From NCBI GenBank assembly GCA_025964255.1, contig JAOPZF010000133.1, forward strand, positions 1-51,696: 51,696 nt of DNA, given 5' to 3'. A program made the translations under genes and the position numbers. Shown here one piece after another: positions 427 through 15,970 of this stretch. Each line of letters opens with the position of its first letter. Positions within the stretch are counted from its first letter, which is position 1. Under the pieces are notes generated by a model that saw nothing but the letters and a program-made list of their open reading frames with translations, ran no database searches and was not told the DNA's origin. Source of the stretch: Solirubrobacterales bacterium. GTDB taxonomy: Bacteria > Actinomycetota > Thermoleophilia > Solirubrobacterales > 70-9.

Positions 427-1533
427 TCAGCCTGTCGGAGCCAGCGTTCCGTTGCGAAGCGTGAGGTACGTATCGAGCTTTTCGGAATGGCTGACCACGC
501 GCTCCACGATCCTTTCCAACACCTCGTCGGCGGCCGGGATCGCAAGTCCGTTCTCGTCGACGGAGGTGGGAGTCAGCTCCACCTCGCACCCGCCATCACG
601 GCCGAAGCGGAGCGAGGCGACGTAGCCATCGGGGGACATCGAGGCGACAACCTTGAGCATCGTGTCGTCGAGCTCCGAGAGGTCGAACGGGATCTGTTTG
701 CCGACCAGCGTGCCCGGGCTGTAGAGAACGGGGGCGCCTTCGTAGATCTCGATCCCTTGAACTCCGTGAACATGATTACCGAGCACGGCGTCTGCTCCGG
801 CCTCGACCACGGCATGAGCGAGTGGGCGCTGGTACTCCGCGAGGTCCGCGCCTCCTCCATAGCCCCAGTGGACGGAGACGCAAAGAAGGTCGACTTCCGC
901 ACGAAGCGCCCGCACCCGCTCCAGCGCCACGGCGCAGTCATCCTCGTCGACCCGGGTTCGGATCGTGACCATCAGCGGCTCGCCTGGCTCCTCCAACTCC
1001 CAGAGCGGGTTGACCTCGTAACCGCTATGAACTCGAATCGCGGCAACACCGGGACGCTCCTCGGTAGCGGGCGCGCCGGGGGCAGCCAGACAGGTGAAAG
1101 CGATGAAGCCGACCTTGAGCCCGTTGCGTTCGAGCACCACCGGTTGGAGCGCGGCGGCGATCGAGTCACCTGCGCCCACATGGGCGATCCCGAGGCGGTC
1201 GAAGGCTTCCACCGTATCGGCGAGCGCATCTGGCCCATAGTCCGTGACGTGATTATTCGCCAGCGTCACGATGTCGAATCCGAGCTTGCCGAAATCGGCT
1301 GCCAACGCCGGATCCGACCGGATCGCGGCGAGCTTCTCGGCAGGACGACCACGGTCTGAAAGGGGCGTCTCGAAGTTGGTGAATCGGAGGTCCGCCCTCG
1401 CCAGTACGTCCAGCGTCGCCGCGAACTGGGCACTGATCGGTCGGCCGTCCCTGTAGAAGGGTCCGTTGGGAAAGCAGTCGCCGCCGACCGCGAGGCTCAC
1501 TGTCTCGTTCACCGATAAACCCTCTCTTTTCAT
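427..1533 (-). CDS. CapA-family metallophosphatase-like protein
   Basis: The protein belongs to the CapA/PGA_cap family, a calcineurin-like metallo-dependent fold first known from poly-gamma-glutamate capsule synthesis and also common as stand-alone enzymes of unknown substrate. Family motifs occur in order: VGGDCF near the N-terminus, FETPLSDRG, LANNHVTDYG, SVHWGYGG and GNHVHGVQGIE, whose Asp, Asn and His residues are expected metal ligands. No signal peptide or membrane helix is visible, so a cytosolic role is likely. It is the last gene of the leftward catabolic arm. The start is ambiguous: ATG 1533 is used here, TTG 1545 overlaps the preceding SDR gene, and GTG 1512 has the best ribosome-binding site (AGAGAGGG). 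Its link to the sugar pathway is unknown. Confidence 0.85.
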   Translation of the reverse strand: MKREGLSVNETVSLAVGGDCFPNGPFYRDGRPISAQFAATLDVLARADLRFTNFETPLSDRGRPAEKLAAIRSDPALAADFGKLGFDIVTLANNHVTDYGPDALADTVEAFDRLGIAHVGAGDSIAAALQPVVLERNGLKVGFIAFTCLAAPGAPATEERPGVAAIRVHSGYEVNPLWELEEPGEPLMVTIRTRVDEDDCAVALERVRALRAEVDLLCVSVHWGYGGGADLAEYQRPLAHAVVEAGADAVLGNHVHGVQGIEIYEGAPVLYSPGTLVGKQIPFDLSELDDTMLKVVASMSPDGYVASLRFGRDGGCEVELTPTSVDENGLAIPAADEVLERIVERVVSHSEKLDTYLTLRNGTLAPTG

Positions 1534-1538
1534 CCCCG

Positions 1539-2348
1539 TCACCAACTTGCGACCGGTTCTTGATGTCCGCCTTGCGGCCAGTGAAATTCTCCGTTGACCG
1601 CGGCGGGTGCCTCGATCAGTCGGATCACCACGGCGACGGCCTCAGCCAGCGAATCGCCGCCTGTCGCCTCGACGAGGCGCACCCAATCGCCCAGGCCCCC
1701 GGCCGCCTCGCCGAGGGCGGTCACCTTGGAGTGGATCTCAGCCCACATGTCGGTCTTCAGCGAACCAGGATGGATCGCGTTCGCCGTCACTCCGGTCCCT
1801 TCCAACTCGATGGCCAGTTGGCGCGTCAGACGATTGAGTGCCGCCTTGGAGGTCGCATAGGCACTGTCGAAAGGGACCGGGGGCAGAATGGCCCCGGCGG
1901 AGGAGACGTTGACGATCCTTCCCCAACCGGCGGCCAGCATCTTGGGAACGAACTCGCGACAGGTCAGAAAGGGACCGAACAGGTTGACTTCCTGGGTCGC
2001 TATCCATTCATCCACCGGACTGTCGCCGAAAGCGGTGATCGGCCCGAAGATGCCGGCGGCATTGACGAGGACACCGGCCGGGCCGAACTCGCGCTCGGTC
2101 ACCGCCCGGAGCGCGGCGACATCGCAAGGAATCCGTACATCGGTCTGGACCGCCACCGCCTCCGCCCCCGCTTCGGCACGAATCAGACGGGCGGTCGCCT
2201 CGAGGTCGGCAGCAGTGCGACCGGCCAGAACGACGTTGATCCCGCGGGCGGCCAGGGCGATCGCCACCTCGCGACCAAGGCCGCGGCCGGCACCGGTCAC
2301 CACCGCGACCCCGCCGGCCAGACTCGGGGTGGCGCCAGCTTCGGTCAT
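1539..2348 (-). CDS. SDR-family NAD(P)-dependent oxidoreductase
   Basis: This is a 269-residue classical short-chain dehydrogenase/reductase. The N-terminal Rossmann fold carries the TGAGRGLG cofactor loop (about residues 18-25), an NAAG motif follows in mid-protein, and the catalytic Ser is in NVSSAG with the Tyr-Lys pair in YATSK. These enzymes oxidise hydroxyl groups or reduce ketones with NAD(P). The ATG overlaps the stop of the upstream transporter gene (ATGA), so translation is coupled. Position directly behind a sugar transporter suggests oxidation of the imported sugar or a sugar acid. Substrate and cofactor preference cannot be read from the sequence. Confidence 0.9.
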   Translation of the reverse strand: MTEAGATPSLAGGVAVVTGAGRGLGREVAIALAARGINVVLAGRTAADLEATARLIRAEAGAEAVAVQTDVRIPCDVAALRAVTEREFGPAGVLVNAAGIFGPITAFGDSPVDEWIATQEVNLFGPFLTCREFVPKMLAAGWGRIVNVSSAGAILPPVPFDSAYATSKAALNRLTRQLAIELEGTGVTANAIHPGSLKTDMWAEIHSKVTALGEAAGGLGDWVRLVEATGGDSLAEAVAVVIRLIEAPAAVNGEFHWPQGGHQEPVASW

Positions 2349-4225
2349 GCCGTCATCGCCTCCCGCTTCGGCACGTAACCGGCCATCGCGTGGATCAGAT
2401 TTTCCTCCGAGGTCTCCTGCGCCGCGCCTTCGAGGATCACCTCGCCCTGCCGCATGACGACAATCCGGTCGCCGATGCCGAGCACCGTCTCGACGTCGTG
2501 TGAGATCACGATGACGCCCACCCCCTGCGCGGCCAACGAATCGATCAATTCGAGCGTGCTCTGCGACTGGCGCATGCCGAGGGCAGCGGTCGGCTCGTCG
2601 AGGATCACGACCTTGGCCCCCTCGTCGATCACCCGGGCGATCGCGACGGACTGTCGCTGTCCGCCCGACAACAGGCGCACCGGACGTCGGTAGTCGCCCA
2701 GGTCGACGCCGAGTCTGCTGAGTCGTTCTTCTGCCCCGGTGATCGCGGCCTTGTCGTCGCGCCAGGACACCGGGCCCCAGTTCATCCGCCGCGGCTCCTC
2801 ACCGAGCGAGAGGTTCTCGGCCGCTCCAAGATTCGGACATAGTGCGAGGTCCTGGTAGACGGTGCGGATGCCGAGCTCTCGGGCAGCCCGTGGGCTGTCG
2901 AGATCCACCGCCGCGCCGTCGATTTCGATCGTGCCTCCGTCAGGGCGTACAGCGCCGCTCAGCATCTTGATCACGGTGCTCTTCCCGGCGCCGTTATCTC
3001 CGGCGAGACAAAGAACTTCGCCCGCGGAAACCGAGAGGTTCACGCCGCCCACGGCGCAGACCGCGCCGTAGTACTTCGACAGTCCTTCGCACCTGAGCAC
3101 CACGGCGCCACGTTTGCGCTCGAGTTTCTTCCGCGAGCCGATCTTCGGGCCGCCGATGGGCGCCGAGATGGCCGCGGACCTTGCTTCCGACCCGCGCCGG
3201 CCGTGGACTGCGGTGCGACGACGATAGGCGGTGAACTGGTCCGCCGCGAGAGCGAGCAGCAGGGCCCCGCCGTGGACGACCTGCTGCCAATAGCTCGCGA
3301 CGCCGGCGAAGATGACGCCGGCATTGAGAATTCCGATGGTCAGCACACCGACGAATACGCCGACGGGATGCCCGGAGCCTCCATTGAAGGCGACGCCGCC
3401 CAGGATCACCGCGGTGAGGACGAGCAGCTCGAACCCGGTCCCGACCTGCGGCGAGGCGCTGCCGACCTGAGCCACCGAGAGCAGGGCAACCAATCCCATA
3501 AGAGCCCCGTTGATGCTGTACAGACCGGTCACGTATCGATCCACCCGAACGCCCGCAAGCTCGGTCGCGACAGGGTTCCCGCCTATCGCGTAGATCCGCA
3601 GTCCGAGAACGGTCCGCAGCATGACGACACTGCCGACGAAGAAGACGGCTGCTCCGATCAGAACCGGAAGGGGTACCGAGTCGATGTGGGTCTGGCCGAT
3701 CTTCAGGAACGAACTTGAGAACCCGTAGATCGAGACCCCCTTGGAGACGACGAATGCCAGGCCGGCCAGCACGGTGCCGGCCCCAAGGGTGACGATCAGG
3801 GGATTGATCCTCAGCAGCCGCACGAGGCGACCGTTGATGTAGCCGAGGACGAGACCGGATCCGAGGGCGGTAGCGACCGCGGCGCCGGTTCCCGAGTCAC
3901 GGGCGGCGTAACCGGTCAGCACGCCGATGAAGGCGTACTGACCGCCGATCGAGAGGTCGACGTTGCCGGACGTCAGCAGCATCATCTGGCCCAGGCCGGC
4001 GATGCCGACCGAGGTGACGGACAACAGCGTGATGAAGAAATTGTCGAGGCTGAGGAAGCCGCTGTAGTTGGCCCCGAGGTAGAGGGCGAGCGCGATGCAG
4101 ACGAGGGCGAGGCCGATGCGACTGCGGGCGTCCCAGGGCCTCTCCTGGGACGCGGCGCTCGCGGCTCGCCACGCGCTTACGCGGTCGCGGAGCCCTCCGC
4201 TCATCTTCCGATCGCTATTTTTCAC
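2345..4225 (-). CDS. Sugar ABC transporter: permease and ATPase fused in one polypeptide
   Basis: The 626-residue protein joins two subunits that are normally separate. Residues about 35-335 form a multi-helix RbsC-like permease with the CUT2 signature region (LTSGNVDLSIGGQ, then NPLIVTLG). After a basic linker, residues about 375-626 form a single RbsA-type ATPase domain with Walker A GDNGAGKS (about 409), the LSGGQ signature and Walker B VVILDEPTAA. CUT2 transporters import monosaccharides such as ribose, xylose or rhamnose; here the ATPase half is a single domain, not the usual RbsA tandem. The GTG start at 4225 overlaps the end of the binding-protein gene; ATG 4204 is an alternative. It forms a complete importer with the upstream lipoprotein. 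Confidence 0.92.
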   Translation of the reverse strand: MKNSDRKMSGGLRDRVSAWRAASAASQERPWDARSRIGLALVCIALALYLGANYSGFLSLDNFFITLLSVTSVGIAGLGQMMLLTSGNVDLSIGGQYAFIGVLTGYAARDSGTGAAVATALGSGLVLGYINGRLVRLLRINPLIVTLGAGTVLAGLAFVVSKGVSIYGFSSSFLKIGQTHIDSVPLPVLIGAAVFFVGSVVMLRTVLGLRIYAIGGNPVATELAGVRVDRYVTGLYSINGALMGLVALLSVAQVGSASPQVGTGFELLVLTAVILGGVAFNGGSGHPVGVFVGVLTIGILNAGVIFAGVASYWQQVVHGGALLLALAADQFTAYRRRTAVHGRRGSEARSAAISAPIGGPKIGSRKKLERKRGAVVLRCEGLSKYYGAVCAVGGVNLSVSAGEVLCLAGDNGAGKSTVIKMLSGAVRPDGGTIEIDGAAVDLDSPRAARELGIRTVYQDLALCPNLGAAENLSLGEEPRRMNWGPVSWRDDKAAITGAEERLSRLGVDLGDYRRPVRLLSGGQRQSVAIARVIDEGAKVVILDEPTAALGMRQSQSTLELIDSLAAQGVGVIVISHDVETVLGIGDRIVVMRQGEVILEGAAQETSEENLIHAMAGYVPKREAMTA

Positions 4226-5498
4226 TGTCGATGCCGGCGGGCGTGTAGTTCGGTTCGCCGAACGAGGTGTTGCCGTAGTAGGTCAGGTACTTGGCGACGC
4301 TGCCTTCAAAGATGGAGGCCGGATCTGCTTCCGCGGCCAGCACCCCGTCGACGGTTTCGGCGTTGACGATCTGCATCTTCAGATCCAGTACCGCGGGGAT
4401 CGATTTGCCTTCGATCCAATCGCAGCAGAACTGCCCGACGGCGTAAGCCTCGACGGCGTTGGGGAAGGCGATGTCTTCGCGTAGCAGCCCACCCGCTTTC
4501 ACCATGTTGAGGGCGCTCGGTTCCCCGTTGAAGCCGCTGACATAAATCTTGTCTTCGGGACTCTTGCCCGCCGCTTCGAGCGCCGAGATCACGCCGAGCG
4601 CGGTGTCGTCATCGGCGAGCCAGACGTTGGCATCCGGATGCGCCTGGAGGAGGGTCGAAGCGAGTTCGTTGCCCTCCTGTGGCGTCAACAGTTTGATCGG
4701 CTGGTTGGCGACGATCTGGACGCCGGAGCCGGCTTTTTCGACGCCGGCTACCCGGCCTTCGCCGCGCGGGATCAGCGATTCGGCGATCTGGTCGTCGTTG
4801 AACACCACGACCTGCGCTTGTCCACCAAGATTCTTCTTGATCCACTTCGCCGCCTGTTCACCTTGGAGGAGGCCACCCTTGTATTGATCGGCGATGATCT
4901 GCTGCGTGGAGGGACCGGCGACCATATAGACGATGTCGATGCCGGCTTTTATCGCTTCCAGAAGGGTCGCCGACTCGCCATGTTCGTCTTGGACCTGAGC
5001 CATGATCGCGCCGACGCCGGTCTGTTGGAGCTGCTGGAGCTGGGCGATGTTCTGAGCGACGTCCGCTTCCCAGGTCGTTGCGCTGAAGTCGAAGCCGCGA
5101 TCCTTGACGGCTTTTTCGACGTTCTTTTGGTAGTTGTTGAAGTATTCGGATCCGGCCGGGAAGTTGGTCGCGATGTGCTGCGGAAGTCCCGTTTCCGGTC
5201 CCGCCGCGACGCCGGGATCGAAGGGCTTGAAGCTTGAGAGGGTCGTCTTGTTGGTGGTGAGCGTCCCGAACGAACCAACACCGCCTCCGCCACCGCCGCT
5301 CGTGGTTCCGCCGCCGGTACTGCTCGCCGTGGTGCTGGAGCCGCCGCAGGCTGCCAGCACGGTCGGAATGACCGTCAGCCCCCCGGCTACAACCGACGCT
5401 CGCACCAGCATCGTGCGACGCGTGTAATTCTCGCCGAGCGGCTGTGGAGCAGCTCCCTTGATGGGATCACCTGAAACGTCTTTCTTCCCCAGTGACAT
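4215..5498 (-). CDS. Sugar ABC transporter substrate-binding lipoprotein with Tat signal
   Basis: This is a periplasmic-binding-protein-like (Peripla_BP_4) sugar receptor for the adjacent fused transporter. ATG 5498 is chosen because AGAGGAGAGAG lies directly upstream; a longer reading would place that site inside the gene. The N-terminus has an unusually long hydrophilic leader, an Arg-Arg pair at residues 27-28 (YTRRTMLVRAS), a hydrophobic stretch and the lipobox LAAC with Cys51, so export through Tat followed by lipid anchoring is predicted. A Gly/Ser/Thr-rich linker precedes the binding domain. Its own promoter and a GntR-type operator lie just upstream at 5527-5573. Glutamate is mostly encoded by GAA, unlike cytosolic neighbours. 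The sugar is unknown. Confidence 0.92.
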   Translation of the reverse strand: MSLGKKDVSGDPIKGAAPQPLGENYTRRTMLVRASVVAGGLTVIPTVLAACGGSSTTASSTGGGTTSGGGGGGVGSFGTLTTNKTTLSSFKPFDPGVAAGPETGLPQHIATNFPAGSEYFNNYQKNVEKAVKDRGFDFSATTWEADVAQNIAQLQQLQQTGVGAIMAQVQDEHGESATLLEAIKAGIDIVYMVAGPSTQQIIADQYKGGLLQGEQAAKWIKKNLGGQAQVVVFNDDQIAESLIPRGEGRVAGVEKAGSGVQIVANQPIKLLTPQEGNELASTLLQAHPDANVWLADDDTALGVISALEAAGKSPEDKIYVSGFNGEPSALNMVKAGGLLREDIAFPNAVEAYAVGQFCCDWIEGKSIPAVLDLKMQIVNAETVDGVLAAEADPASIFEGSVAKYLTYYGNTSFGEPNYTPAGIDSEK

Positions 5499-5526
5499 TC
5501 TCTCTCCTCTTGGCACGAGTTCCCAT

Positions 5527-5539
5527 GTGGTCAGACCAA
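5527..5539. promoter_or_regulatory. Putative GntR/FCD operator upstream of the sugar-binding protein gene
   Basis: GTGGTCAGACCAA contains the perfect palindrome TGGT-CAG-ACCA. It matches the TTGGTnnnACCAA pattern recognised by FCD-type GntR regulators such as PdhR, and differs at one position from the reverse complement of the site at 8404-8416. It overlaps the expected transcription start of the binding-protein gene, where a bound repressor would block initiation. Confidence 0.6.
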
Positions 5540-5545
5540 AATTAT

Positions 5546-5573
5546 CCTATACAGCCGCTTCTGCACATGTCAA
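5546..5573 (-). promoter_or_regulatory. Putative promoter of the sugar transporter genes
   Basis: On the minus strand a perfect TTGACA (5573-5568) is followed after 16 nt by TATAGG (5551-5546). The -35 element overlaps the last codons and stop of the preceding Gfo/Idh gene, so the transporter genes can be transcribed separately. The operator at 5527-5539 lies directly over the predicted start. Confidence 0.5.
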
Positions 5574-6655
5574 GCAAGTATTTGGTCATGCCACTCAGCA
5601 GGTATATCCAGAACATCGAGGCGCTCCTGTCGGCCGCTTTCAGCCGCCCGCACGGCGGTCAAGGCGACGGCGAGAGAGCGCAGCGATTCGGCTGGACGCA
5701 GACGCTCGGGCGGACGACCGCTGCGTACGCACTCCGCGAGGTAAAGGAGGGTCTCCCGCAATGCCGTCGCCGCGTCGCCGGGACCAAGCGACGCAACCGA
5801 CGGGTCGAGGCGCTCGGGACCCTCAGCGCCCAGCAATTCCAGCCCGTCACTCGGCGTCCGCAGGCGCGCCACTCCTTCGGTACCGATCAGCTCGGTCTCG
5901 GACTCGAGCCAGACGCCGGCGTCGTCAGGGAGCACCCAAGCGTTCTCCACGACGGCCAGGCGGCCCCCGGGGAACTCCAGCACGGTCCACAGCAAATCGG
6001 GGAAGGGGGAGTCGACGGCAGGAGCGGCACAGTTCACCCGGACCGACTGCGGCATCGACCCGAAGTACCAGCACGCCAGGTCGAAGTCGTGGATCGCCGC
6101 CATCAGGGCCGGGTGCGTCCGGGCATACCTGGCGTGGGCAGATCGGAGATTCAGCCTACGGGCGTACACGCTACGAAGATCTCCCAGCGACCCTTCCACG
6201 AGTCTTTGTTTGAGTGCGGCGAAGCGTGGGTCAAAGCGGAGAATGTGACCGGTCATGACCGTCACGTCGTGCTGCTCGGCGATCCGCAGTAGGCGCGCCG
6301 CCGCCGGAAGGTCTAGAGCGAGCGGCTTCTCTATCAACGCGTGCACGCCGCGTTCGAGGAAAGGAGCCGCGACCTCGGCGCGGTCGGACTCGCCGCTCGC
6401 GATGCTGACGATGTCGAGTTCGGCATCCGCCATCTCGAGGGCGGAAACGAAACATCGGCTGACGTCGTGTTCGGCAGCCACGGCCTCGCCCCGGGCGCGA
6501 TCGCGGTCGCAGACCGCCACGACCGAGACACCAGGCACCTGTCGCCACGCCCGCAGGTGCTCGACCCCCCACGGCCCGAGGCCGACCACCCCGATTCGAA
6601 GCGATGTCCCGTTGCGCTTTGCTCGCGTCTCCCCAGCCGTCCCGGAGGAAAGCAT
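5570..6655 (-). CDS. Gfo/Idh/MocA-family oxidoreductase
   Basis: This 361-residue enzyme has the family's N-terminal Rossmann domain (GVVGLGPWG around residues 22-30) and the conserved EKPLALD motif that carries the catalytic Lys near residue 130. A C-terminal alpha/beta substrate domain follows. Members oxidise or reduce sugars, inositols and sugar acids with NAD(P). The ATG overlaps the amidohydrolase stop (TGATG), giving tight translational coupling. Context suggests a second dehydrogenase acting on the same imported carbohydrate as the SDR enzymes. The exact reaction cannot be assigned. Confidence 0.9.
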   Translation of the reverse strand: MLSSGTAGETRAKRNGTSLRIGVVGLGPWGVEHLRAWRQVPGVSVVAVCDRDRARGEAVAAEHDVSRCFVSALEMADAELDIVSIASGESDRAEVAAPFLERGVHALIEKPLALDLPAAARLLRIAEQHDVTVMTGHILRFDPRFAALKQRLVEGSLGDLRSVYARRLNLRSAHARYARTHPALMAAIHDFDLACWYFGSMPQSVRVNCAAPAVDSPFPDLLWTVLEFPGGRLAVVENAWVLPDDAGVWLESETELIGTEGVARLRTPSDGLELLGAEGPERLDPSVASLGPGDAATALRETLLYLAECVRSGRPPERLRPAESLRSLAVALTAVRAAESGRQERLDVLDIPAEWHDQILA

Positions 6656-7902
6656 CAGAGCGGCGGGGCAGCATCGAGCCAGCTTCGGGAACCGGCGGCC
6701 CTGCCCGGATGGGGCAACGGACCGCCCCAGAGAATGCCCGCGCGGATCGTCGCCTCGGCACGCAAGAGCTGCCGAGCCGGTCGCCGAGCCCCGGACGCGT
6801 CGACGAACTCACCGTCGTGATCTTCGAGAGAGAGGACGGCGATGTCGGCGATGTCGCCGACACGCAGCCTGCCGAGGGTGTCGTCGCGTCCGATCAACTC
6901 CGCGGGACGCAGCGTCGCCGCGCGCACAACCTCGGCCAACGGCATCCCAAGGTTGAGGAACTTGGCCATCGTCTGCGGTAGATCACCGACCGGCCCGCTG
7001 GCACTTAGCGAGTGAAGGTCGGTGGAGATCGTGTCGGGCCAGAATCCACCCGCGATGGCCTCCTCGACGACTCCATAATCGAAGCTACCGAAGCCATGCC
7101 CGACGTCAAAGATGACGCCGCGCCGGCGGGCGACCGCGGCGGCCGCGATCAACTCACCGCCTTCGACGAGGCCGTTCGGCGCCGGCGTAAAGCAGTGGGT
7201 GACGATGTCGCCGGGCCGCAGCAGCTCCATCAGCTCACCGAGGGCCGCCGGTGCTCCTCCGATGTGCACCATCACCGGCACCCCGGCGCGCTCGCCCGCC
7301 TCGACGGCGATTCGCACCGGCGTCAGCCCGTTGTCACCGACGATCAGCGGCGCCTGCTCGCGAACCTTGATCCCGATGGCGATATCGCGGTTTTCGACGA
7401 TCGCTCGGACCACTTTGTCGACGTCGAGATAGGCGAGGTCGATCGCCTCGCCCTCCGGCCAACCGGTAAGGCCGATCGTCGAGATGTGAACGAAGGCGAG
7501 AACCCGCGTCCGGTTGCCGTTGACGATCATGTTGCGGAAGCCTTCGAGCGTGTGGGCACCGGCATCGCCGGCGCTCACGATCGTCGTGACGCCGCTGGTC
7601 GAGCAGGCCTCGTCGGCCGGCACGGTAAGCGGGCAGACCCCGGTATAGACGTGGGCGTGAAGATCGACCAGGCCCGGAACGGTGATCTTGCCGCGGGCGT
7701 CGACCACCGTCGTCCCGGTGTGCGGCGGGTACTCGAGGCGCGGCGAGGCGACCAGATCGGATAGATCGTCGGCGATCGCGGCGATCCGACCGAAGCGGAC
7801 TCCGACATCGAGAACCTCGTCGACGCCGCTGCCGGGATCGACCACCCGCCCACCACGGACCAACAGGTCGAGCGGCGCATCCGTTCGATCGTCCATCGTC
7901 AT
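6655..7902 (-). CDS. Metal-dependent amidohydrolase/deacetylase-family protein (COG3964-like)
   Basis: The protein is a TIM-barrel amidohydrolase of the D-aminoacylase/dihydroorotase group. Visible landmarks are the beta-sandwich start (LLVRGGRVVDPGSG), the HAH metal motif in VDLHAHVY, a candidate carboxylated Lys in IGIKVREQ, His residues in VMVHIGG and IVTHCFTP, and the catalytic Asp in ISTDLHS. It probably hydrolyses an amide, lactam or lactone; COG3964 members often sit in amino-acid or amino-sugar-acid gene clusters. ATG 7902 follows AAAGGAG and overlaps the RidA stop by one base; ATG 7896 is also possible. It belongs to the tightly packed leftward arm. Confidence 0.87.
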   Translation of the reverse strand: MTMDDRTDAPLDLLVRGGRVVDPGSGVDEVLDVGVRFGRIAAIADDLSDLVASPRLEYPPHTGTTVVDARGKITVPGLVDLHAHVYTGVCPLTVPADEACSTSGVTTIVSAGDAGAHTLEGFRNMIVNGNRTRVLAFVHISTIGLTGWPEGEAIDLAYLDVDKVVRAIVENRDIAIGIKVREQAPLIVGDNGLTPVRIAVEAGERAGVPVMVHIGGAPAALGELMELLRPGDIVTHCFTPAPNGLVEGGELIAAAAVARRRGVIFDVGHGFGSFDYGVVEEAIAGGFWPDTISTDLHSLSASGPVGDLPQTMAKFLNLGMPLAEVVRAATLRPAELIGRDDTLGRLRVGDIADIAVLSLEDHDGEFVDASGARRPARQLLRAEATIRAGILWGGPLPHPGRAAGSRSWLDAAPPL

Positions 7903-8403: not shown

Positions 8404-8416
8404 TTGGTCTGGCCAC
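8404..8416. promoter_or_regulatory. Putative GntR/FCD operator at the start of the leftward arm
   Basis: TTGGTCTGGCCAC reads GTGGCCAGACCAA on the minus strand, which differs by one base from the site at 5527-5539. It overlaps the predicted -10 element and start of the RidA gene. Confidence 0.5.
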
Positions 8417-8444
8417 CCTACTAACGGCAAGTGTGCCGCGTCAA
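8415..8444 (-). promoter_or_regulatory. Putative promoter of the RidA-amidohydrolase-oxidoreductase genes
   Basis: On the minus strand TTGACG (8444-8439) and TAGGGT (8420-8415) are separated by 18 nt. Transcription would begin about 5-7 nt before the GTG at 8402, leaving almost no leader. Confidence 0.4.
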
Positions 8445-8484
8445 CCCTGAGGTAGGTACTCAACCCTAACGTACCCCTGGTCCA

Positions 8485-8513
8485 TTGGAGATTTGGTCAG
8501 TCCAATGTAATAT
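8485..8513 (+). promoter_or_regulatory. Putative promoter of the GntR gene (probably leaderless)
   Basis: A weak -35 (TTGGAG, 8485-8490), a 17-nt spacer and TAATAT (8508-8513, fitting TANNNT) precede the ATG at 8522 by only 8 nt. No ribosome-binding site fits between them, which points to a leaderless transcript. Confidence 0.4.
8493..8505. promoter_or_regulatory. Putative GntR/FCD operator in front of the regulator gene
   Basis: TTGGTCAGTCCAA is one base from TTGGTnnnACCAA and shares TGGTCAG with the site at 5527. It lies between the predicted -35 and -10 elements. CATTGGA (8483-8489) and TCCAATG (8501-8507) form an additional overlapping 7-bp inverted repeat. Confidence 0.55.
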
Positions 8514-8521
8514 GGCCATTG

Positions 8522-9301: not shown

Positions 9302-10455
9302 CCACCACCGTGCTCGACACGCAGACCGAGCGGCTGGCGACACTGGCCGCGTGCTCCGGCGACACCCCGGACCTCGTCATCGACCTCGGCGCCCTCCAGA
9401 CCAACGTCGACCGTATCGCCGCCGCCGCCGCGGCGCACGGCGTCGGTGTCCGACCCCACATCAAGACCCACAAGCTGATCCAGGTAGCCCGGATGCAGAT
9501 GAACGCCGGGGCGGTCGGGATCCAGGTCGCCAAGCTCGGCGAAGCCGAAGTGATGGTCGAAGCCGGGATCCTCGACGTGCTCGTCGGCTACCCGATCGTC
9601 GGCAAGGCGAAGGTCGAGCGACTGGTCGGGCTCGCCGAGCTCGCCCGCGTCACCGTCAGCCTCGATGCCCTCGAGGTTGCACGGCCGATCGCCGAGGCGG
9701 CAGAGAGGCGCGGGGTCGAGCTCAACTTCCTGATCGAGATCGACACCGGGCTCTCGCGGATCGGCGTCCCTCCCGGCGAGGAGGCGATCGGGCTGGCGGA
9801 GCAAGTCGCCGCCCTGCCGGCGACGCACCTGATCGGCGTGCTCACCCATGAGGGCCATGCCTACACCCGCGCGGGCTCAGAGGAGGAGCTCCGCACGATC
9901 ACCCGGGAGGCATGTGAGCGCACGGTAGCCACGGCCCGGGAGCTGCGGGCCCGCGGCACCGCGGCGCCTGTGATCTCGGTCGGTTCATCCGGCACCTTCC
10001 GCTTCGCGATCGAGGTCGACGGCGTGACCGAGGTCCGCCCTGGCACCTATGTATTCAACGACCGGACGCAGATCGGCCTCGGTGCCGCGACGCCGGCCGA
10101 CGTCGCGGCCGTGGTCGTCGCGACCGTGGTCAGCGGGCACCGAGCCGGCGAAGTCGTCCTCGATGCCGGCAGCAAGGCACTTACTTCCGACCGGATGATC
10201 TCGAATTCGGTCTCCGATACTTTCGGGCTGGTCGCGGCCGACGACGGCTCTGTCGGTGAAATCGTCCGGCTCAGCGAGGAGCACGCGGTCGCCTCCTTCC
10301 CGCAAGGCGTCAAGGCCCCAGGCGTCGGCGAGCGGGTGGCCATCATCCCGAATCACATCTGCCCGGTCGTCAACCTGTTCGAGAAAGCGACGGTGACGCT
10401 CGATGGTGCGGTGGTCGACCGGTGGCCGGTCGCCGCCAGAGGACTGCTGCGATGA
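9298..10455 (+). CDS. D-threonine aldolase/D-serine dehydratase-like PLP enzyme
   Basis: This is a fold-type III PLP enzyme (alanine-racemase N-terminal barrel plus D-serine-dehydratase-like C-terminal domain). RPHIKTHK near residue 57 contains the PLP lysine, and IPNHICP near residue 350 supplies the His-x-Cys metal site typical of D-threonine aldolases and eukaryotic-type D-serine dehydratases. Members cleave or dehydrate D-beta-hydroxy amino acids. The GTG overlaps the regulator stop, so translation is coupled. Pairing with the RidA-like protein suggests an enamine intermediate. Whether it is an aldolase or a dehydratase cannot be decided from the sequence. Confidence 0.85.
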   Translation: MTTTVLDTQTERLATLAACSGDTPDLVIDLGALQTNVDRIAAAAAAHGVGVRPHIKTHKLIQVARMQMNAGAVGIQVAKLGEAEVMVEAGILDVLVGYPIVGKAKVERLVGLAELARVTVSLDALEVARPIAEAAERRGVELNFLIEIDTGLSRIGVPPGEEAIGLAEQVAALPATHLIGVLTHEGHAYTRAGSEEELRTITREACERTVATARELRARGTAAPVISVGSSGTFRFAIEVDGVTEVRPGTYVFNDRTQIGLGAATPADVAAVVVATVVSGHRAGEVVLDAGSKALTSDRMISNSVSDTFGLVAADDGSVGEIVRLSEEHAVASFPQGVKAPGVGERVAIIPNHICPVVNLFEKATVTLDGAVVDRWPVAARGLLR

Positions 10456-11252
10456 ATGCAGAGGCGGAATTCAGCGGCCGCGTCGTGCTCGTCGCCGGCG
10501 CCGCCCGGGGGATCGGCCTCGCCTGCGCGGAGGCATTCGCGGCCCGCGGAGCGACGGTCGCGTTGGCCGACATCGCCGACGAGGGCCTCGACGACGCGGC
10601 GGCGAGGCTGAGCGCGACAACGACCGCCGCCAACAGCAGTCACCAAGTCGATCTCGGTGACGCGGCGGCGGGAACCGGGCTGGTCGCCGAGATCATTGCC
10701 GCACACGGGCGGATCGACATCCTCGTGAACGCCGCCGGCCTGCTGATGACCCGCCCGTTCCTGGAGCTTGAGCCCGCGGAATGGGATCGGGTGAACGGGG
10801 TCAACGCCCGGGGTGGTGTCTTCCTCGCCCAAGCGACGGCGCGGCAGATGGTCGCCCAGGGGAGCGGCGGCAGAATCGTCCTGGTGGCCTCGCTCGTCGC
10901 GCGGCGTCCGGTCCGGCTCGACAACGTGGCATACAGCGCCTCGAAGGCGGCAATTCTCCAGGCGGCGACTTGCATGGCGCTCGAGCTGGCGCCACATCAG
11001 ATCACCGTCAACGTCGTCTCGCCCGGCTCGACCGCAACGGAGATGCTGCTCGAGGACCAACTCGGAGGTGGCGCCGATGCTCGGGAGCGTGCGCTGCAGG
11101 GTGACCTCGCGACCTGGCGTCTCGGCGTTCCTCTGGGCCGCCTCGCGGAGCCGGCCGACCAGGCCGCCGCGACCGTTTTCCTGGCCGGCGACGGCGCTCG
11201 CCACATCACCGGCCAAGAGCTCATCGTCGACGGCGGCCAGGCCGTCGTCTGA
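10452..11252 (+). CDS. SDR-family oxidoreductase
   Basis: The protein is a classical SDR with the GAARGIG cofactor loop near residue 16, a VNAAG motif and the YSASK catalytic pair; it ends in the typical GQELIVDGG. ATG 10452 overlaps the stop of the preceding gene (ATGA). In known non-phosphorylative L-fucose/L-rhamnose pathways, an SDR oxidises the 2-keto-3-deoxy acid to a 2,4-diketo acid that an FAH-family enzyme cleaves. The FAH-family gene lies only 4 bp downstream, so this step is a plausible role. That assignment is inference from gene order. Confidence 0.9.
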   Translation: MNAEAEFSGRVVLVAGAARGIGLACAEAFAARGATVALADIADEGLDDAAARLSATTTAANSSHQVDLGDAAAGTGLVAEIIAAHGRIDILVNAAGLLMTRPFLELEPAEWDRVNGVNARGGVFLAQATARQMVAQGSGGRIVLVASLVARRPVRLDNVAYSASKAAILQAATCMALELAPHQITVNVVSPGSTATEMLLEDQLGGGADARERALQGDLATWRLGVPLGRLAEPADQAAATVFLAGDGARHITGQELIVDGGQAVV

Positions 11253-11256
11253 GCCG

Positions 11257-12114
11257 ATGCGCCTCGTCCATCTCGCCGGCGCGGAGCATCCGGAGCTCGC
11301 CATGCTTCGCGAGGGGGGCGTGGTCCCCCTCCGCCCGACCCTCCCTGCGGGGGTCGAGACGCTCGACGACGCGATCGAGCTTGGCCCCGGAGCACTCCGG
11401 GCCGCGGCGGACAAGCTCGGCGACGCCGATGGGATCCCGCTCGCCGACGTCTCGCTCGCCGCCCCACTCTGCCGCCCGTCGAAGGTACTGTGCATCGGGA
11501 TGAACTACCGCGACCACGCCGCGGAGCAGGGAGTCGAGCTACCCGATCAGCCACTCCTTTTCGCGAAGTTTCCATCGGCGCTCACCGGCCCCGACAGCAC
11601 GATCGGCTGGTCGCCGAAGCTGACCAGCCAGGTGGATTGGGAGGCCGAGCTGGCGGTGGTCGTCGGGCGGCGGCTCCGAAATGTCTGCGCGGCCGACGCG
11701 ATCGAGGGCGTGTTCGGCTACACGGCGGCGAACGACCTCAGCGCTCGCGACCTCCAGTTCGCCGATGGCCAGTGGGTGCGCGGCAAGAGCCTCGACGGCT
11801 TCCTGCCGCTCGGACCTGCCGTGGTCACCGCCGACTCCTTCGACCCGGGCGCGAAGGCGATCCGCTCGTACGTCAACGGCAAGCTGATGCAGGACTCGAG
11901 CACCGACCAGCTGATCTTCGGCGTTGGCGAGATCCTCTCCTTCCTCTCCCGATCCTTCACCTTGATGCCCGGCGACATCGTCCTCACCGGCACCCCTGCC
12001 GGGGTGGGCGCCTTCCGCGACCCGCCGGTCTTTCTTGGCGATGGCGATGTGGTCGAGATCGAGATCGAAGGGATCGGCACGCTGCGCAACACCATGCGCG
12101 AGGTGCGCGATTGA
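11257..12114 (+). CDS. Fumarylacetoacetate hydrolase-family protein
   Basis: This 285-residue protein has a short N-terminal domain and the FAH catalytic domain. The motifs are CIGMNYRDHAAE, LFAKFPSAL, DWEAELAVVVGR (metal-binding Glu residues), FGYTAANDLSARD and DIVLTGTPAGVG. Family members hydrolyse or decarboxylate beta-diketo acids using Mg2+. Acylpyruvases and 2,4-diketo-3-deoxy-fuconate/rhamnonate hydrolases belong here, the latter yielding pyruvate plus L-lactate. LutABC, which consumes L-lactate, follows immediately, which makes the diketo-acid hydrolase role attractive. ATG 11257 lies 4 bp after the SDR stop. Confidence 0.9.
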   Translation: MRLVHLAGAEHPELAMLREGGVVPLRPTLPAGVETLDDAIELGPGALRAAADKLGDADGIPLADVSLAAPLCRPSKVLCIGMNYRDHAAEQGVELPDQPLLFAKFPSALTGPDSTIGWSPKLTSQVDWEAELAVVVGRRLRNVCAADAIEGVFGYTAANDLSARDLQFADGQWVRGKSLDGFLPLGPAVVTADSFDPGAKAIRSYVNGKLMQDSSTDQLIFGVGEILSFLSRSFTLMPGDIVLTGTPAGVGAFRDPPVFLGDGDVVEIEIEGIGTLRNTMREVRD

Positions 12115-12863
12115 GTTCCGAGGTGCCGATCGCGCTCTTCGTCACCTGCCTCAACGACACCCTGTTTCCGAGCGTGGGCCAGGCCACCGTGCGACTACTC
12201 GAGCGGCTGGGCTATCCGGTCTCCTTTCCCGTCGGGCAGACCTGCTGCGGGCAGATGCACGTGAACAGCGGCTACGCCACCGAGGCCCTGCCGATGCTCC
12301 GAAGGTTCCTCGGGGCCTTCTCGGGCGAGGAGCTGATCGTCTCCCCGTCCGCCTCCTGCGTCGCCACGGTTCGCCATCAATACCCGACGATCGCCCGCGA
12401 CGCCGGCGACGCCGGCCTGGCCGCCGCGCTCGAAGGGCTGACCCCGCGGGTCTTCGAGCTGAGCGAGTTGCTCACCGAGCGCCTTGGCCTGGTCGACGTA
12501 GGCGCCTCGTTCCCGCACCGGGTCGCTTACCACCCGACCTGTCACTCGCTGCGCGGCCTGGGGCTCGGCGAGGCGCCGCTGCGCCTGCTGCGCGCGGTGC
12601 GCGGGCTCGAGCTGGTCGAGTTGCCGAGCGCGGAGGTGTGTTGTGGGTTCGGCGGGACCTTCGCCGTGAAGAATGCTGACACCTCGGCGGCGATGCTGGA
12701 CGACAAGCTCGCCGCGTTGCGAGCCTGCGGCGCCGAGGTCTGCACGACGGTCGACAGCTCCTGCCTGATGCACATCGGCGGCGGGCTCAGTCGTGCGGGA
12801 AGCGGCATCCGGGGAATGCACATCGCCGAGATCCTCGCCTCCGAGATGGCACCGGCGTCGTGA
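12111..12863 (+). CDS. lutA: L-lactate utilisation protein LutA (Fe-S oxidoreductase)
   Basis: About 250 residues with two cysteine-rich CCG-type motifs, each ending in CC: PVGQTCCGQMHVNSGY near the N-terminus and SAEVCCGFGGTF in the second half, plus the conserved YHPTCHSLRGLG. This matches LutA/YkgE, a subunit of the LutABC complex that oxidises L-lactate to pyruvate. No ATG is available. TTG 12111 has GAGGTG 5 nt upstream and overlaps the FAH stop (TTGA); GTG 12123 is the alternative. It overlaps lutB by 4 nt. Confidence 0.9.
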   Translation: MSSEVPIALFVTCLNDTLFPSVGQATVRLLERLGYPVSFPVGQTCCGQMHVNSGYATEALPMLRRFLGAFSGEELIVSPSASCVATVRHQYPTIARDAGDAGLAAALEGLTPRVFELSELLTERLGLVDVGASFPHRVAYHPTCHSLRGLGLGEAPLRLLRAVRGLELVELPSAEVCCGFGGTFAVKNADTSAAMLDDKLAALRACGAEVCTTVDSSCLMHIGGGLSRAGSGIRGMHIAEILASEMAPAS

Positions 12864-14275
12864 GTGCCTATCGGCCCTTTCCGGAGGCGGCGCGTGACGG
12901 GCTGGCCGACCCGACCCTGCGGCGCAATCTGAGCCGAGCCACGGCGACGATCCGTGCCCGCAGCGCCGCGGTCGTGGCCGAGAAGCAGGATTGGCAGGCG
13001 CTACGCGACGCCGGGGCGGCGATCAAGGCCGACACGATGTCCCGGCTCGACACCCTTCTGAAGCAATTCGAGCGGCAGGTCGAACGGGCCGGCGGGACCG
13101 TCCACTGGGCCGCGGATGGCGCCGAGGCCTGCGAGATCGTGACCGCCATCGCCCAGGCCAACGGCTACTCGCGCCTGCTCAAGGTGAAGTCGATGGCAAC
13201 CGACGAGATCGACCTCAACGCAAAGCTCGCGGACGCCGGGATCGAGGCCGTCGAGACCGACCTCGCCGAGCTGATCGTGCAACTGGCGGGGGACCGTCCC
13301 TCCCACATCCTCGTTCCGGCGATCCACCGCAACCGCGCCGAGATCCACGCCCTCTTCGCCGAGCACCTCGGCGCCCGCCCCGAGGAGACCGAACCGCAGG
13401 CGCTCGCCGCCGTCGCGCGCCGCCACCTGCGTCGCCAATTCATGACCACTCCGATGGCGGTCAGCGGGGCCAATTTCGGCGTCGCCGAGACCGGCGCGGT
13501 CTGCGTGGTCGAGTCGGAGGGGAATGGCCGCATGTGCACCACCCTGCCCGAGGTTCTCGTGACGGTGATGGGGATCGAGAAGCTGATCCCGCGCTGGCAG
13601 GACCTCGAGGTCTTCCTTCAGTTGCTGCCGCGCGCGGCTACCGGCGAGCGGATGAACCCCTACACCTCGCTCTGGACCGGCGTGCGGAAGGACGTGCCGG
13701 GAGATGGACCGCGGGAGTTCCACCTCGTCCTGCTCGACAACGGGCGCACGCGGGCGCTCGCCGACCCGCGGGGCCGCGACGCCCTTCACTGCATCCGCTG
13801 CAGTGCCTGCCTCAACGTCTGCCCGGTCTACGAGCGGGTCGGTGGACACGCCTACGAAGGTGTCTACCCGGGCCCGATCGGGGCGATCCTGGCACCGCAG
13901 CTCGAGGGGATCGAGTCCCGTTCCTCATTGCCGTTCGCCTCCACGCTCTGCGGCGCCTGCTTCGAGGCCTGCCCGGTGAAGATCGACATCCCATCGATGC
14001 TCGTCCACCTGCGCGGCGCCGCCGTCAAGTCCGGGGCGACGCCGCGCGCCGAACGGCTGACGATGGCGGCGCTCGCTCGCGCGTTCGGCTCGCGGCGCGG
14101 CTTCGAGGCGCTTCAGCGGCTCGGCTCGGTTCTGCAGCGGCAGCTCCCTCGGGATCGCCGGATGGCGCGCTTTCCCGGCCCGCTCGGTCGTTGGGCCCGA
14201 TCTCGCGACCTGCCACCAGCGGCGTCGCAAAGCTTCCGTTCCTGGTGGGAAAAGGAGCGTGATGGCCGGCGATGA
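12860..14275 (+). CDS. lutB: L-lactate utilisation iron-sulfur protein LutB
   Basis: The 471-residue protein combines an N-terminal LUD domain (about residues 60-290) with a ferredoxin-like region. Two CxxCxxCxxxCP clusters (CIRCSACLNVCPVY and CGACFEACPVKIDI) would bind two [4Fe-4S] centres for electron transfer. A C-terminal LutB-type tail follows. It starts with GTG overlapping the lutA stop. Together with LutA and LutC it forms the membrane-independent L-lactate oxidation complex, so lactate is a predicted product of the upstream steps. Confidence 0.93.
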   Translation: MSAYRPFPEAARDGLADPTLRRNLSRATATIRARSAAVVAEKQDWQALRDAGAAIKADTMSRLDTLLKQFERQVERAGGTVHWAADGAEACEIVTAIAQANGYSRLLKVKSMATDEIDLNAKLADAGIEAVETDLAELIVQLAGDRPSHILVPAIHRNRAEIHALFAEHLGARPEETEPQALAAVARRHLRRQFMTTPMAVSGANFGVAETGAVCVVESEGNGRMCTTLPEVLVTVMGIEKLIPRWQDLEVFLQLLPRAATGERMNPYTSLWTGVRKDVPGDGPREFHLVLLDNGRTRALADPRGRDALHCIRCSACLNVCPVYERVGGHAYEGVYPGPIGAILAPQLEGIESRSSLPFASTLCGACFEACPVKIDIPSMLVHLRGAAVKSGATPRAERLTMAALARAFGSRRGFEALQRLGSVLQRQLPRDRRMARFPGPLGRWARSRDLPPAASQSFRSWWEKERDGRR

Positions 14276-14957
14276 GCCACACATGGGCGGCGCGCGGGAG
14301 GAGATCTTGGCGCGCGTAGGCGCGGCGCTCTCCGACCTTTCCGCCGCGGCCCGTACGGAGCCGGCCGAGATCCCGCGCCTCTACGAACGCGGACGCGAGG
14401 CGACCCCGGCGATACGGGAGTTATTCGCCGAGCGCGTCGCTGACTACAGGGCGGCGCCACTGACGCTCTCCGCGCCCGAGGACATCGGCGGCGCCGTCTC
14501 GCGCCTCGCCCAGGCGCGCGGCGCCAGGCGCTTGGCCGTGCCCGACGACCTGCCGGACGCGTGGGCCCCGGCCGACCTCGAGTTGGTGCCCGACCGCGGG
14601 TCGAGCGCGGCCGAGCTCGACCGGCTGGACGGCGTCCTGACCGGATGTGCGGCAGCGATCGCCGAGACGGGCACGATCGCCTTGGACGGTGGTGCCACGC
14701 AAGGGCGTCGCCATCTGACCCTGATCCCGGACTGGCACATCTGCGTCGTTTTCGCCGACCAGCTGGTCGCGGGCGTCCCGGAGGCGATCCTGCGGCTCGG
14801 CTCGGCAGCACATGAGGGCAGGCCGATCACCCTGATCTCCGGACCCTCGGCGACTTCGGATATCGAGCTCGAGCGGGTCGAGGGCGTGCATGGCCCCCGC
14901 ACGCTGGACGTGCTGATCGTCGACCGAGAACAATCGACCAAGGAGCATCCGCTATGA
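14262..14957 (+). CDS. lutC: L-lactate utilisation protein LutC (LUD domain)
   Basis: This 231-residue LUD-domain protein carries the hallmark SGPSATSDIELERVEGVHGP near the C-terminus and an AETGTIALDGG motif, both characteristic of LutC/YkgG. Its role is as third component of lactate oxidation. ATG 14262 follows AAAAGGAGC; it overlaps the end of lutB by 14 nt. The stop overlaps the ATG of the next gene (ATGA). The complete lutABC set in one operon argues for a functional complex. Confidence 0.92.
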   Translation: MAGDEPHMGGAREEILARVGAALSDLSAAARTEPAEIPRLYERGREATPAIRELFAERVADYRAAPLTLSAPEDIGGAVSRLAQARGARRLAVPDDLPDAWAPADLELVPDRGSSAAELDRLDGVLTGCAAAIAETGTIALDGGATQGRRHLTLIPDWHICVVFADQLVAGVPEAILRLGSAAHEGRPITLISGPSATSDIELERVEGVHGPRTLDVLIVDREQSTKEHPL

Positions 14958-15970
14958 GCGAGTCGCACCAAGCCCCGTTCGGCTCCGCCGGCGCGTGGCC
15001 GGCGCCGTGGACCCTGGCGCGGGGGCTCTGCAACGCCGAGGGCCCCACCGCCGCTCCCCGCGGCTGGATCCTCAACGTCAACAGCCTCAGCCGCCCCAGC
15101 GAGCCGAGCTGGCCGACCCGGGGCGGCGACATCACCGCCACCCACCTTGCGCGGCCAGGCCAGACGACGGTTCTCTTCAACACCTCGACCGCGAAGGTCG
15201 AGGGAATCCCCTGCGCCCTCGCGTTCGGCCCCGACGAGGCTCTGTACATCGCCGACGAGGGACGGCGGGCGATCCTGCGGGTTCCCCCCGAGGGCGAAAT
15301 CGAAGATCTCATCATCGACTGGCACGACGAGCGACTCAACGGCGCCAACGACCTCGTCTTCGATCCGGCGGGGAACCTCTACTTCACCGATCCCTGGACG
15401 AGCTCGCCGCGGAACCCCGTCGCCGGGGTCTACGGATACTCGTGGAGCAGCGGCGAGCTGCACCAGATCGATTCAGGGATGCAGTTCACCAACGGCATCG
15501 TGGTATGGGAGGACCGGCTGCTGGTCGCCGAGACCTACACCCGGATGGTCTGGAGCTACGAGCTAGGCGGCGAAGGAAGGGCCGGCAACCGGCAACCGTT
15601 CTGCGAGCTGCCCGACATCGCCGACGCGCCGCCGCTCCCTCCGAACGTCCAGCAGACGCTCGGGGTCAAGTACGTGTGCGGGCCCGACGGGATGGCCTGC
15701 GACGCCGAGGGCAGGCTCTATGTCGCCCATTACTCGGCCGGCGGCATCTTTGTCTATGACCGGTCCGGCGACTACGTCGACACGATCCCGACCCCGGGCG
15801 CGATCCCGACCAATGTCTGCTTCGGCGGACCCGACCACGATCAACTCTTCGTCACCGTCGACGACATCGGCGAGCTTCTCGTCTACGACCTCGGGGTCCC
15901 CGGGCAACGGCTGCCGTTCTGCCCCTCGGGCAGCGGCAACCACGCCTGGGCCGCAATGCTGCCGAACTGA
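14954..15970 (+). CDS. SMP-30/gluconolactonase-family protein
   Basis: This 338-residue beta-propeller enzyme shows family metal-site segments: an early Glu (CNAEGP), Asn in NGANDLVFDPAG, and Asp in CGPDGMACDAEG. SMP-30/gluconolactonase proteins hydrolyse sugar lactones using a divalent metal. In this cluster it would open the lactone formed by a sugar dehydrogenase. It is the last gene of the rightward arm and overlaps lutC by 4 nt. No signal peptide is evident. The lactone specificity is unknown. Confidence 0.88.
   Translation: MSESHQAPFGSAGAWPAPWTLARGLCNAEGPTAAPRGWILNVNSLSRPSEPSWPTRGGDITATHLARPGQTTVLFNTSTAKVEGIPCALAFGPDEALYIADEGRRAILRVPPEGEIEDLIIDWHDERLNGANDLVFDPAGNLYFTDPWTSSPRNPVAGVYGYSWSSGELHQIDSGMQFTNGIVVWEDRLLVAETYTRMVWSYELGGEGRAGNRQPFCELPDIADAPPLPPNVQQTLGVKYVCGPDGMACDAEGRLYVAHYSAGGIFVYDRSGDYVDTIPTPGAIPTNVCFGGPDHDQLFVTVDDIGELLVYDLGVPGQRLPFCPSGSGNHAWAAMLPN

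Follow-up and report, generated by a model that had tools for sequence, protein, structure and literature searches.

Two described catabolic systems come closest to the sugar-acid locus analyzed here. In the ong pathway of Pseudoalteromonas prydzensis, a deacetylase, a fold-type III pyridoxal 5'-phosphate (PLP) deaminase and a RidA protein degrade 2-acetamido-2-deoxygluconate (GlcNAc1A); the source reports that RidA is essential in vivo and leaves its role unexplained, and that the deaminase OngC, which is placed near the D-Ser dehydratase/D-Thr aldolase group, is also active on D-serine and D-threonine (PMC9537276). The ong deacetylase is of subtype V, the D-aminoacylase-like type (PMC12017989). 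In route 3 of the non-phosphorylative L-fucose and L-rhamnose pathways (FucF/FucG, LRA5/LRA6), a short-chain dehydrogenase/reductase (SDR) step and an FAH-family step lead to pyruvate and L-lactate (PMC11199699). We analyzed a stretch of 51,696 nucleotides (the window) from a Solirubrobacterales bacterium (GCA_025964255.1, contig JAOPZF010000133.1), in which 15 genes at 427-15970, defined by open reading frames and family profile matches, form two tight divergent blocks flanking the region of a GntR regulator gene. Gene content, gene order, operator-like sites, catalytic motifs and the recurrence of sub-groups were read directly from the sequence. The substrate of the locus is likely to be some amino-sugar acid, and we give even odds to the complete proposal, a non-phosphorylative catabolic pathway in which an N-acyl amino sugar of the 6-deoxy type yields L-lactate.

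We infer every reaction of this pathway, their order, the substrate and the inducer as follows. A CUT2-type importer would take up an N-acylated amino sugar, probably a 6-deoxyhexosamine; a Gfo/Idh oxidoreductase and/or the first SDR (SDR1) would oxidize C1 to give a lactone, which an SMP-30 family protein would open; and a COG3964 enzyme would strip the N-acyl group off the D-amino-acid-like sugar acid. The PLP enzyme would then eliminate water across C2-C3, and RidA would accelerate ammonia release from the enamine/imine to give a 2-keto-3-deoxy acid. The second SDR (SDR2) would oxidize C4 of this acid, the FAH-family hydrolase would cleave the resulting 2,4-diketo acid to pyruvate and L-lactate, and LutABC would convert the lactate to pyruvate, with GntR repressing both gene blocks.

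The deacylase, RidA and PLP enzyme genes

The RidA-like protein (7902..8402, minus strand), a candidate imine deaminase, matches PF14588 with 39.9 bits (cut-off 35) and PF01042 with 34.3 bits (cut-off 27.3), and retains an arginine common to three solved Rid proteins, which we take to be catalytic. The COG3964 amidohydrolase/deacetylase (6655..7917, minus strand), a candidate N-deacylase, reaches 386.2 bits with NF006689 (cut-off 371) and has ligand-type motifs as in solved relatives, in the pattern HxH, Lys, His, His, Asp. Such enzymes are rare in the class (5 of 299 genomes at E 1e-30, including the source genome), and no literature on them was found among open-licence papers. The fold-type III PLP enzyme (9298..10455, plus strand; PF01168 116.7 bits, PF14031 75.3 bits) is a candidate aminosugar-acid dehydratase/ammonia-lyase.

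Together these genes resemble the ong system, in which an oxidized amino sugar is handled like a D-amino acid by a deacetylase, a PLP deaminase and RidA (PMC9537276). The window likewise has a RidA-family protein and a fold-type III PLP enzyme of the D-Ser dehydratase/D-Thr aldolase group, placed by family profiles and not by comparison with OngC itself. The differences lie around this head module: the deacetylase OngB is of the D-aminoacylase type, whereas the window has a COG3964/NF006689 enzyme; ong has a KdgK kinase and SSS and TonB-dependent transporters, and the 15 proteins of the locus include neither a 2-keto-3-deoxygluconate kinase nor an SSS transporter; the ong substrate is made by a lytic polysaccharide monooxygenase, whereas the window cluster holds its own dehydrogenases and lactonase; and the window adds a CUT2 importer and an FAH and LutABC tail. 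The head module thus appears to match the logic of ong, and RidA, COG3964 and the PLP enzyme are best read as core amino-sugar-acid steps. An earlier note on this DNA had set these three (the PLP enzyme as a 'D-threonine aldolase') and a CapA-like protein outside the known routes; by this analogy the three become core steps and the CapA-like protein is still unexplained. For the same reason its alternative, action on an amino sugar, is the better-supported half of what it proposed.

The metal motif of the PLP enzyme points the same way. Five of 27 matches to solved relatives were compared, among which the D-threonine aldolases 4v15 and 7dib have His-x-Asp and 3wqc has His-x-Cys; the latter is a D-threo-3-hydroxyaspartate dehydratase (D-THA dehydratase), whose other deposited chains show that Cys or His as Ala. 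The window enzyme has H353-x-C355, as is characteristic of the D-Ser/D-THA dehydratase branch, and the His-x-Asp motif of D-threonine/3-hydroxyaspartate aldolases is not present in it. Because of His353-x-Cys355 it probably belongs to the dehydratase branch and is probably the dehydratase that had seemed to be missing, with dehydration of a 3-hydroxy-D-amino-acid-type substrate as its candidate function. A role in the beta-hydroxyaspartate cycle was ruled out (181.4 bits with the BhcC model NF045642, cut-off 690).

The earlier note had found no sugar-acid dehydratase in the window and proposed looking genome-wide for an enolase-superfamily or IlvD-type enzyme under the same operator (described below). 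Searches with the MR_MLE (PF13378) and IlvD/Edd (PF00920) families, with altronate-type dehydratases not searched, found none. The four PF13378 matches in the genome lie in a separate CUT2 cluster (C212), in a menaquinone cluster (C233) and in enolase-like genes (C106, C149), and the two PF00920 matches are both dihydroxyacid-dehydratase-like and lie in no sugar cluster, all contexts and names being assigned by eye. Around the MR_MLE and IlvD/Edd genes of the genome, no operator match was found inside 2 kb; a one-mismatch operator-like match stands 2.4 kb before one of these dehydratase-family genes (C20). The absence therefore holds for the MR_MLE and IlvD/Edd families, and the PLP enzyme probably fills the dehydratase role. 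The distinct CUT2 cluster on C212 (L140), with its MR_MLE-family enzyme and an amidohydrolase-like gene, is a possible second sugar-acid route.

Groups of RidA and PLP genes, and of deacylase, RidA and PLP genes, are found again in distant bacteria. We had genomic context for 90 loci of PLP relatives, the window's own among them: a RidA gene is at most 3 kb from the PLP gene in 18 loci and at most 9 kb away in 23, the corresponding numbers for a deacylase (either kind) are 12 and 14, and 20 loci have Gfo inside 3 kb. We compared the inner 3 kb with the full 9 kb in 88 loci, leaving out the window and its closest relative (expected share 0.408): RidA matches were concentrated close to the PLP gene (16 of 20, p 4e-4), as were Gfo matches (16 of 22, p 0.0025), with p-values that are indicative only because the loci are not independent. 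The closest relative cluster (L001/L117), from an Actinomycetes metagenome-assembled genome (G391 contig 311), shares RidA (71% identity), COG3964 (70%), the permease-ATPase fusion (60%), the PLP enzyme (54%), CapA (53%) and the substrate-binding protein (46%). The loci L008 and L009 of Conexibacter have COG3964-RidA-IclR-PLP clusters, Azospirillum groups a D-aminoacylase gene with RidA and PLP genes, and in Chloroflexota (L005) D-aminoacylase-like, Gfo, phosphotriesterase-like and PLP genes stand together. L001 also encodes a 422-aa protein (3241-4509, minus strand) with no Pfam match that looks by eye like a TIM-barrel hydrolase.

The SDR, FAH and LutABC tail

Downstream of the PLP gene on the plus strand lie SDR2 (10452..11252), a candidate 2-keto-3-deoxy-acid C4 dehydrogenase whose nearest models are EntA-like, and the FAH-family hydrolase (11257..12114; PF01557 236.8 bits), a candidate 2,4-diketo-3-deoxy-acid hydrolase. 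Their spacing is 4 bp with the FAH start taken at ATG 11257; the FAH searches were run from 11269, four residues short. LutA (12111..12863; two CCG stretches, start codon TTG 12111 or GTG 12123), LutB (12860..14275; TIGR00273 459.3 bits, cut-off 444.8) and LutC (14259..14957; LUD domain, without an NCBIfam match) follow on the same strand. All three are there and in the order of a LutABC operon, and would probably oxidize L-lactate; what differs is that this copy is part of a sugar-import locus, with FAH before it and SMP-30 after it, and is probably the terminal step there. With route 3 the locus shares an SDR and an FAH-family hydrolase and, for the earlier steps, a dehydrogenase and a lactonase; it differs in having no sugar-acid dehydratase.

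PLP-RidA-SDR-FAH and FAH-LutABC groups both recur in the class, and both are found in one genome of the same genus (G008). There, FAH stands with LutABC on contig 29, one gene between them, and another locus (L163) reads SDR-sugar ABC transporter-RidA-ATPase-PLP-FAH. FAH also neighbors LutABC in G065; in G223, G368 and G258 the genes next to it are LutABC-like and more distantly related (LutB 41-45% identical). This recurrence supports the earlier observation of an FAH and LutABC tail in a sugar-import and oxidation locus. In G368 (contig 43, L183) a D-aminoacylase-like gene lies between the lutB-like and lutC-like genes, followed by FAH.

Three further actinobacterial clusters have the same functional step sequence as the window: L068, in the order RidA-PLP-SDR-UlaG-like-zinc alcohol dehydrogenase-FAH, and the similar groups L035, with FAH 5 kb off on the opposite strand, and L053, which has PLP, SDR and FAH genes and no RidA match. 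They differ from the window in that a metallo-beta-lactamase-fold protein and a zinc alcohol dehydrogenase replace SMP-30 and Gfo/Idh, the importer is CUT1-like (by eye) and there is no LutB or COG3964 match within 9 kb. The L053 cluster (1754-17155) also carries genes of the SIS, GH4 and PfkB families, as well as a glucosamine-isomerase-like gene with a weak match (25.9 bits against a cut-off of 27).

Elsewhere in the class, LutABC has neighbors that bear on the origin of the lactate. An L-rhamnulose-1-phosphate aldolase/dehydrogenase-like gene is present in 6 of 16 LutB loci (L186, L191, L193, L197, L199, L200), two of which also have rhamnulokinase and rhamnose isomerase genes. The other tested neighbors in L199 are glutamine-synthetase-, aldehyde-dehydrogenase- and alcohol-dehydrogenase-like, so some of the six may not be rhamnose loci. 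Since LutABC of this class can act downstream of a 6-deoxy-L-sugar pathway, lactate derived from such a sugar is, by analogy, plausible at the present locus, but no more than plausible.

Weighing the proposed pathway against its alternatives

A number of observations weigh against the amino-sugar pathway. No protein of the locus is close to one with a proven substrate. The arginine found three residues before the catalytic tyrosine in 2-keto-3-deoxy-L-fuconate dehydrogenases (L-KDFDH) of types 1-4 is absent from both SDR2 (N168/Y171) and SDR1 (D161/Y164); an assignment of either to this known subfamily is therefore not supported, and it is gene context that points to the SDR oxidation step. 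The FAH protein also departs from route 3, with 193.6 bits against a cut-off of 500 for the LRA6-type 2,4-didehydro-3-deoxy-L-rhamnonate hydrolase model NF053535, and belongs to a family that is widespread in the class (240 of 399 genomes at E 1e-50). Nearness of FAH was the reason for inspecting the five FAH-Lut loci, and FAH was found in 0 of the 16 class LutB loci fetched regardless of FAH; nor is there an FAH match near the second LutABC locus of the source genome. Of the 90 loci, 6 have FAH at most 9 kb from the PLP gene, and FAH shows no positional enrichment near it (2 of 6 matches inside 3 kb, p 0.78), and the enrichment is not significant for deacylases (9 of 14, p 0.067) or SDRs (11 of 18, p 0.067). 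His-x-Cys occurs in 89 of the 90 PLP relatives, a share partly built in because 80 of the loci came from peptide patterns spanning the HxC region. Among the individual clusters, the L068 FAH gene reads in two frames, G111, otherwise like L008/L009 and with COG3964 and PLP genes, has no RidA match, and the L001 contig has no FAH, Lut or SMP-30 gene, although this part cannot be judged because the contig stops right after the PLP gene. A cluster in Chelativorans was dropped as strong support, having a His-x-Asp PLP enzyme and a very distant FAH. That cluster (L207; Chelativorans sp. AA-79 plasmid NZ_CP120363.1, 51303-70533) lies on a conjugative plasmid beside TniB/TniQ transposition genes and comprises a beta-propeller lactonase, a peptide-type importer, several SDRs, COG3964, GntR, PLP and the distant FAH.

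One alternative keeps the same head module and replaces the sugar by a 6-hydroxy hexosamine of the N-acetylglucosamine type, so that FAH would yield pyruvate and glycerate and LutABC would oxidize another 2-hydroxy acid or lactate from outside. The absence of LutB within 9 kb in L035, L053, L068 (only 7.4 kb available) and L163 would suit it. At this locus, however, overlapping frames tie LutABC to FAH on one side and to SMP-30 on the other, LutB is annotated as an L-lactate protein, and we regard this alternative as unlikely.

Equally unlikely, in our view, is catabolism of an N-acylated D-3-hydroxyamino acid or a sugar-D-amino-acid conjugate, in which COG3964 would deacylate, the PLP enzyme dehydrate and RidA help, with the sugar enzymes treating the sugar half only. 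The activity of OngC on D-serine and D-threonine, the solved relatives of the PLP enzyme, which are D-amino-acid enzymes, and the peptide-type importers of some related clusters are all in keeping with this; the recurrent neighbors, which include sugar importers, Gfo/Idh and lactonase-type families, speak for a sugar substrate instead.

The plain 6-deoxy sugar route of the L-fucose/L-rhamnose type, which the earlier note had put forward, would need a dehydratase encoded elsewhere and would leave the PLP enzyme, RidA and COG3964 to serve something else. It can draw on the FAH and LutABC tail, on the rhamnose-type aldolase genes beside 6 of the 16 class LutB loci and on the MR_MLE-family gene in the other CUT2 cluster of the genome. 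That gene has no operator match, though, the other strong MR_MLE match is in the menaquinone cluster and the IlvD/Edd genes are in no sugar cluster (by eye), whereas the COG3964, RidA and PLP enzyme genes sit tightly among the other genes of the locus and are found together elsewhere. This is not the best reading of the locus and we consider it rather improbable; the amino-sugar-acid branch is the better reading. A muramic-acid route, in which the PLP enzyme would eliminate the 3-O-lactyl group of oxidized muramate as lactate for LutABC to burn, accounts for LutABC without a 6-deoxy sugar (an argument only) and is very unlikely, with LutB annotated for L-lactate, the lactyl group of muramic acid being D, and no MurQ-like family among the 15 proteins.

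If the amino-sugar pathway operates, a D-specific PLP enzyme and an L-lactate product together imply a sugar with C2 in the D and C5 in the L configuration, for example L-rhamnosamine or L-pneumosamine. Bacterial capsules and O-antigens often contain deoxyamino sugars, and by our own Fischer-projection reasoning the commoner L-fucosamine or L-quinovosamine would need inversion at C2. This leads to a bold version, more lead than result, to which we give a small chance: that the cluster degrades a 6-deoxy-L-hexosamine (such as N-acetyl-L-fucosamine or N-acetyl-L-quinovosamine) by a fully non-phosphorylative route to pyruvate, L-lactate, acetate and ammonia, in which the PLP enzyme replaces the sugar-acid dehydratase and the CapA-like protein, as a metal-dependent enzyme, epimerizes the N-acyl sugar acid at C2. 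CapA would invert C2 because such sugars have an L-amino C2 while the solved fold-type III relatives use D-amino acids.

The CapA-like PGA_cap metalloenzyme (427..1545, minus strand; 372 aa) has the family active-site residues D23, E59, N98, H99, D102, H226 and H260, of which H99 and D102 are nearly invariant and the others invariant in 17 PGA_cap sequences. At E 0.001 it has just three solved relatives, namely MslH, a metal-dependent Calpha epimerase of peptide Trp, and mutants of it (PMC10406935). In the alignment, D23, H99, D102 and H260 face D11, H88, D91 and H295 of MslH, and Gly228 faces H261; the MslH-type epimerase model NF038314 gives 91.8 bits against a cut-off of 700. The dyad residues do not single out an epimerase because they are (nearly) invariant in the 17 PGA_cap sequences. 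PADLOC found nothing to suggest an anti-phage role.

Each step is of a known kind and this combination appears undescribed. An amino-sugar route via a 2,4-diketo acid and FAH was not found in the open-licence literature (subscription journals lay mostly outside the scope), nor was an open-licence paper whose title or abstract concerns a degradation route for deoxyamino sugars; PMC9007349 describes a different glucosamine route. If true, the pathway would unite the D-amino-acid-like breakdown of oxidized amino sugars with the 2,4-diketo (FAH) route for deoxy sugars, so that an amino sugar would enter central metabolism by a phosphate-free path. The pathway would also suggest functions for the 'alanine racemase'/'D-threonine aldolase', RidA and COG3964 genes in sugar operons of several phyla, and why RidA is essential yet unexplained in the ong pathway.

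Gene layout, import genes and operator-like sites

Every part named in the earlier component list was recovered by profile matches. The minus-strand block is transcribed in the order RidA-like, COG3964 amidohydrolase, Gfo/Idh, substrate-binding protein, permease-ATPase fusion, SDR1 and CapA-like, and the plus-strand block reads GntR, PLP enzyme, SDR2, FAH, LutA, LutB, LutC and SMP-30. Adjacent frames overlap or are separated by at most 8 bp, except that 53 bp separate the substrate-binding protein and Gfo/Idh genes and the divergent gap measures 116 bp. The importer comprises a PF13407 substrate-binding protein (4215..5516, minus strand; 85.5 bits, N-terminus twin-arginine/lipobox-like by eye) and a PF02653 permease (98.2 bits), the combination that characterizes CUT2 systems. 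CUT2 ATPases usually have two tandem ABC domains; this importer departs from that form, with a single ABC ATPase domain fused to the permease (2345..4225, minus strand; 626 aa), as it is in L001. The candidate C1 dehydrogenases are the Gfo/Idh/MocA oxidoreductase (5570..6655, minus strand) and SDR1 (1539..2348, minus strand), both by family match, and the candidate lactonase is the SMP-30/gluconolactonase family protein (14954..15970, plus strand; PF08450), with the motifs EGP, NGAND, TNGI and PDGM.

The GntR/FCD regulator (8519..9301, plus strand) has NanR (90.3 bits) and LldR (76.5 bits) as its nearest NCBIfam models, with cut-offs of 260 and 311. Near-palindromic operator-like sites, TTGGTCWGNCCA, flank a promoter-like sequence and also occur in the divergent gap. 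This gap contains TTTGGTCTGGCCA and TTTGGTCAGTCCA, with the sites TTGGTCTGGCCA (8404..8415, plus strand) and TTGGTCAGTCCA (8493..8504, plus strand), from which the search pattern was derived. The promoter-like sequence, a sigma-70-like TTGACA-18-TAGGAT (5544..5573, minus strand), precedes the transporter block and is flanked by TTGGTCTGACCA (5528..5539, minus strand) directly downstream and by TTGGTCATGCCA, with one mismatch (5582..5593, plus strand), within the final codons of the Gfo/Idh gene. The pattern matches the window 6 times where 1.38 are expected, a count that 0 of 100 shuffles reached; two of the six matches had served to define it, two come from one site that matches in both orientations (5526-5540), and the others are at 5581-5593 and 19926. 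The sigma-70-like match, the only one in the first 18 kb, is at chance level (shuffles mean 1.2).

Genome-wide, 65 matches with at most one mismatch compare with 39 for the reversed control, a weak signal by itself; of 6 exact matches, 3 are in this locus. The divergent gap of L001 contains a similar palindrome, TTGGTCGTACCA, at a pattern count that with two mismatches allowed is at chance level (66 of 200 shuffles reach it). These sites support, as a prediction from sequence, the GntR control that had been proposed for the locus. A paired operator-like match on C46 was rejected, as the contig looks foreign and the stretch, although without a called gene, appears protein-coding by eye.

The source genome (G000) spans 4.0 Mb in 277 contigs with an assembly contamination of 6.5%, and the genes of C46 (L137) look by eye unlike the rest of the assembly and are possibly contamination. 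The order of the source genome includes G111, whose DNA matches Conexibacter loci at 81-89% identity across the five longest aligned pieces, which makes a thermoleophilic actinobacterium the probable source. Within the window, G+C is 0.677 inside the locus and 0.690 outside. Insertion of an island at tRNA-Glu (16991-17064) was rejected, with no tRNA repeat of at least 14 bases elsewhere in the window. One further exact operator match, on C200 (6786-6797), lies about 15 bp ahead of a 168-aa gene.

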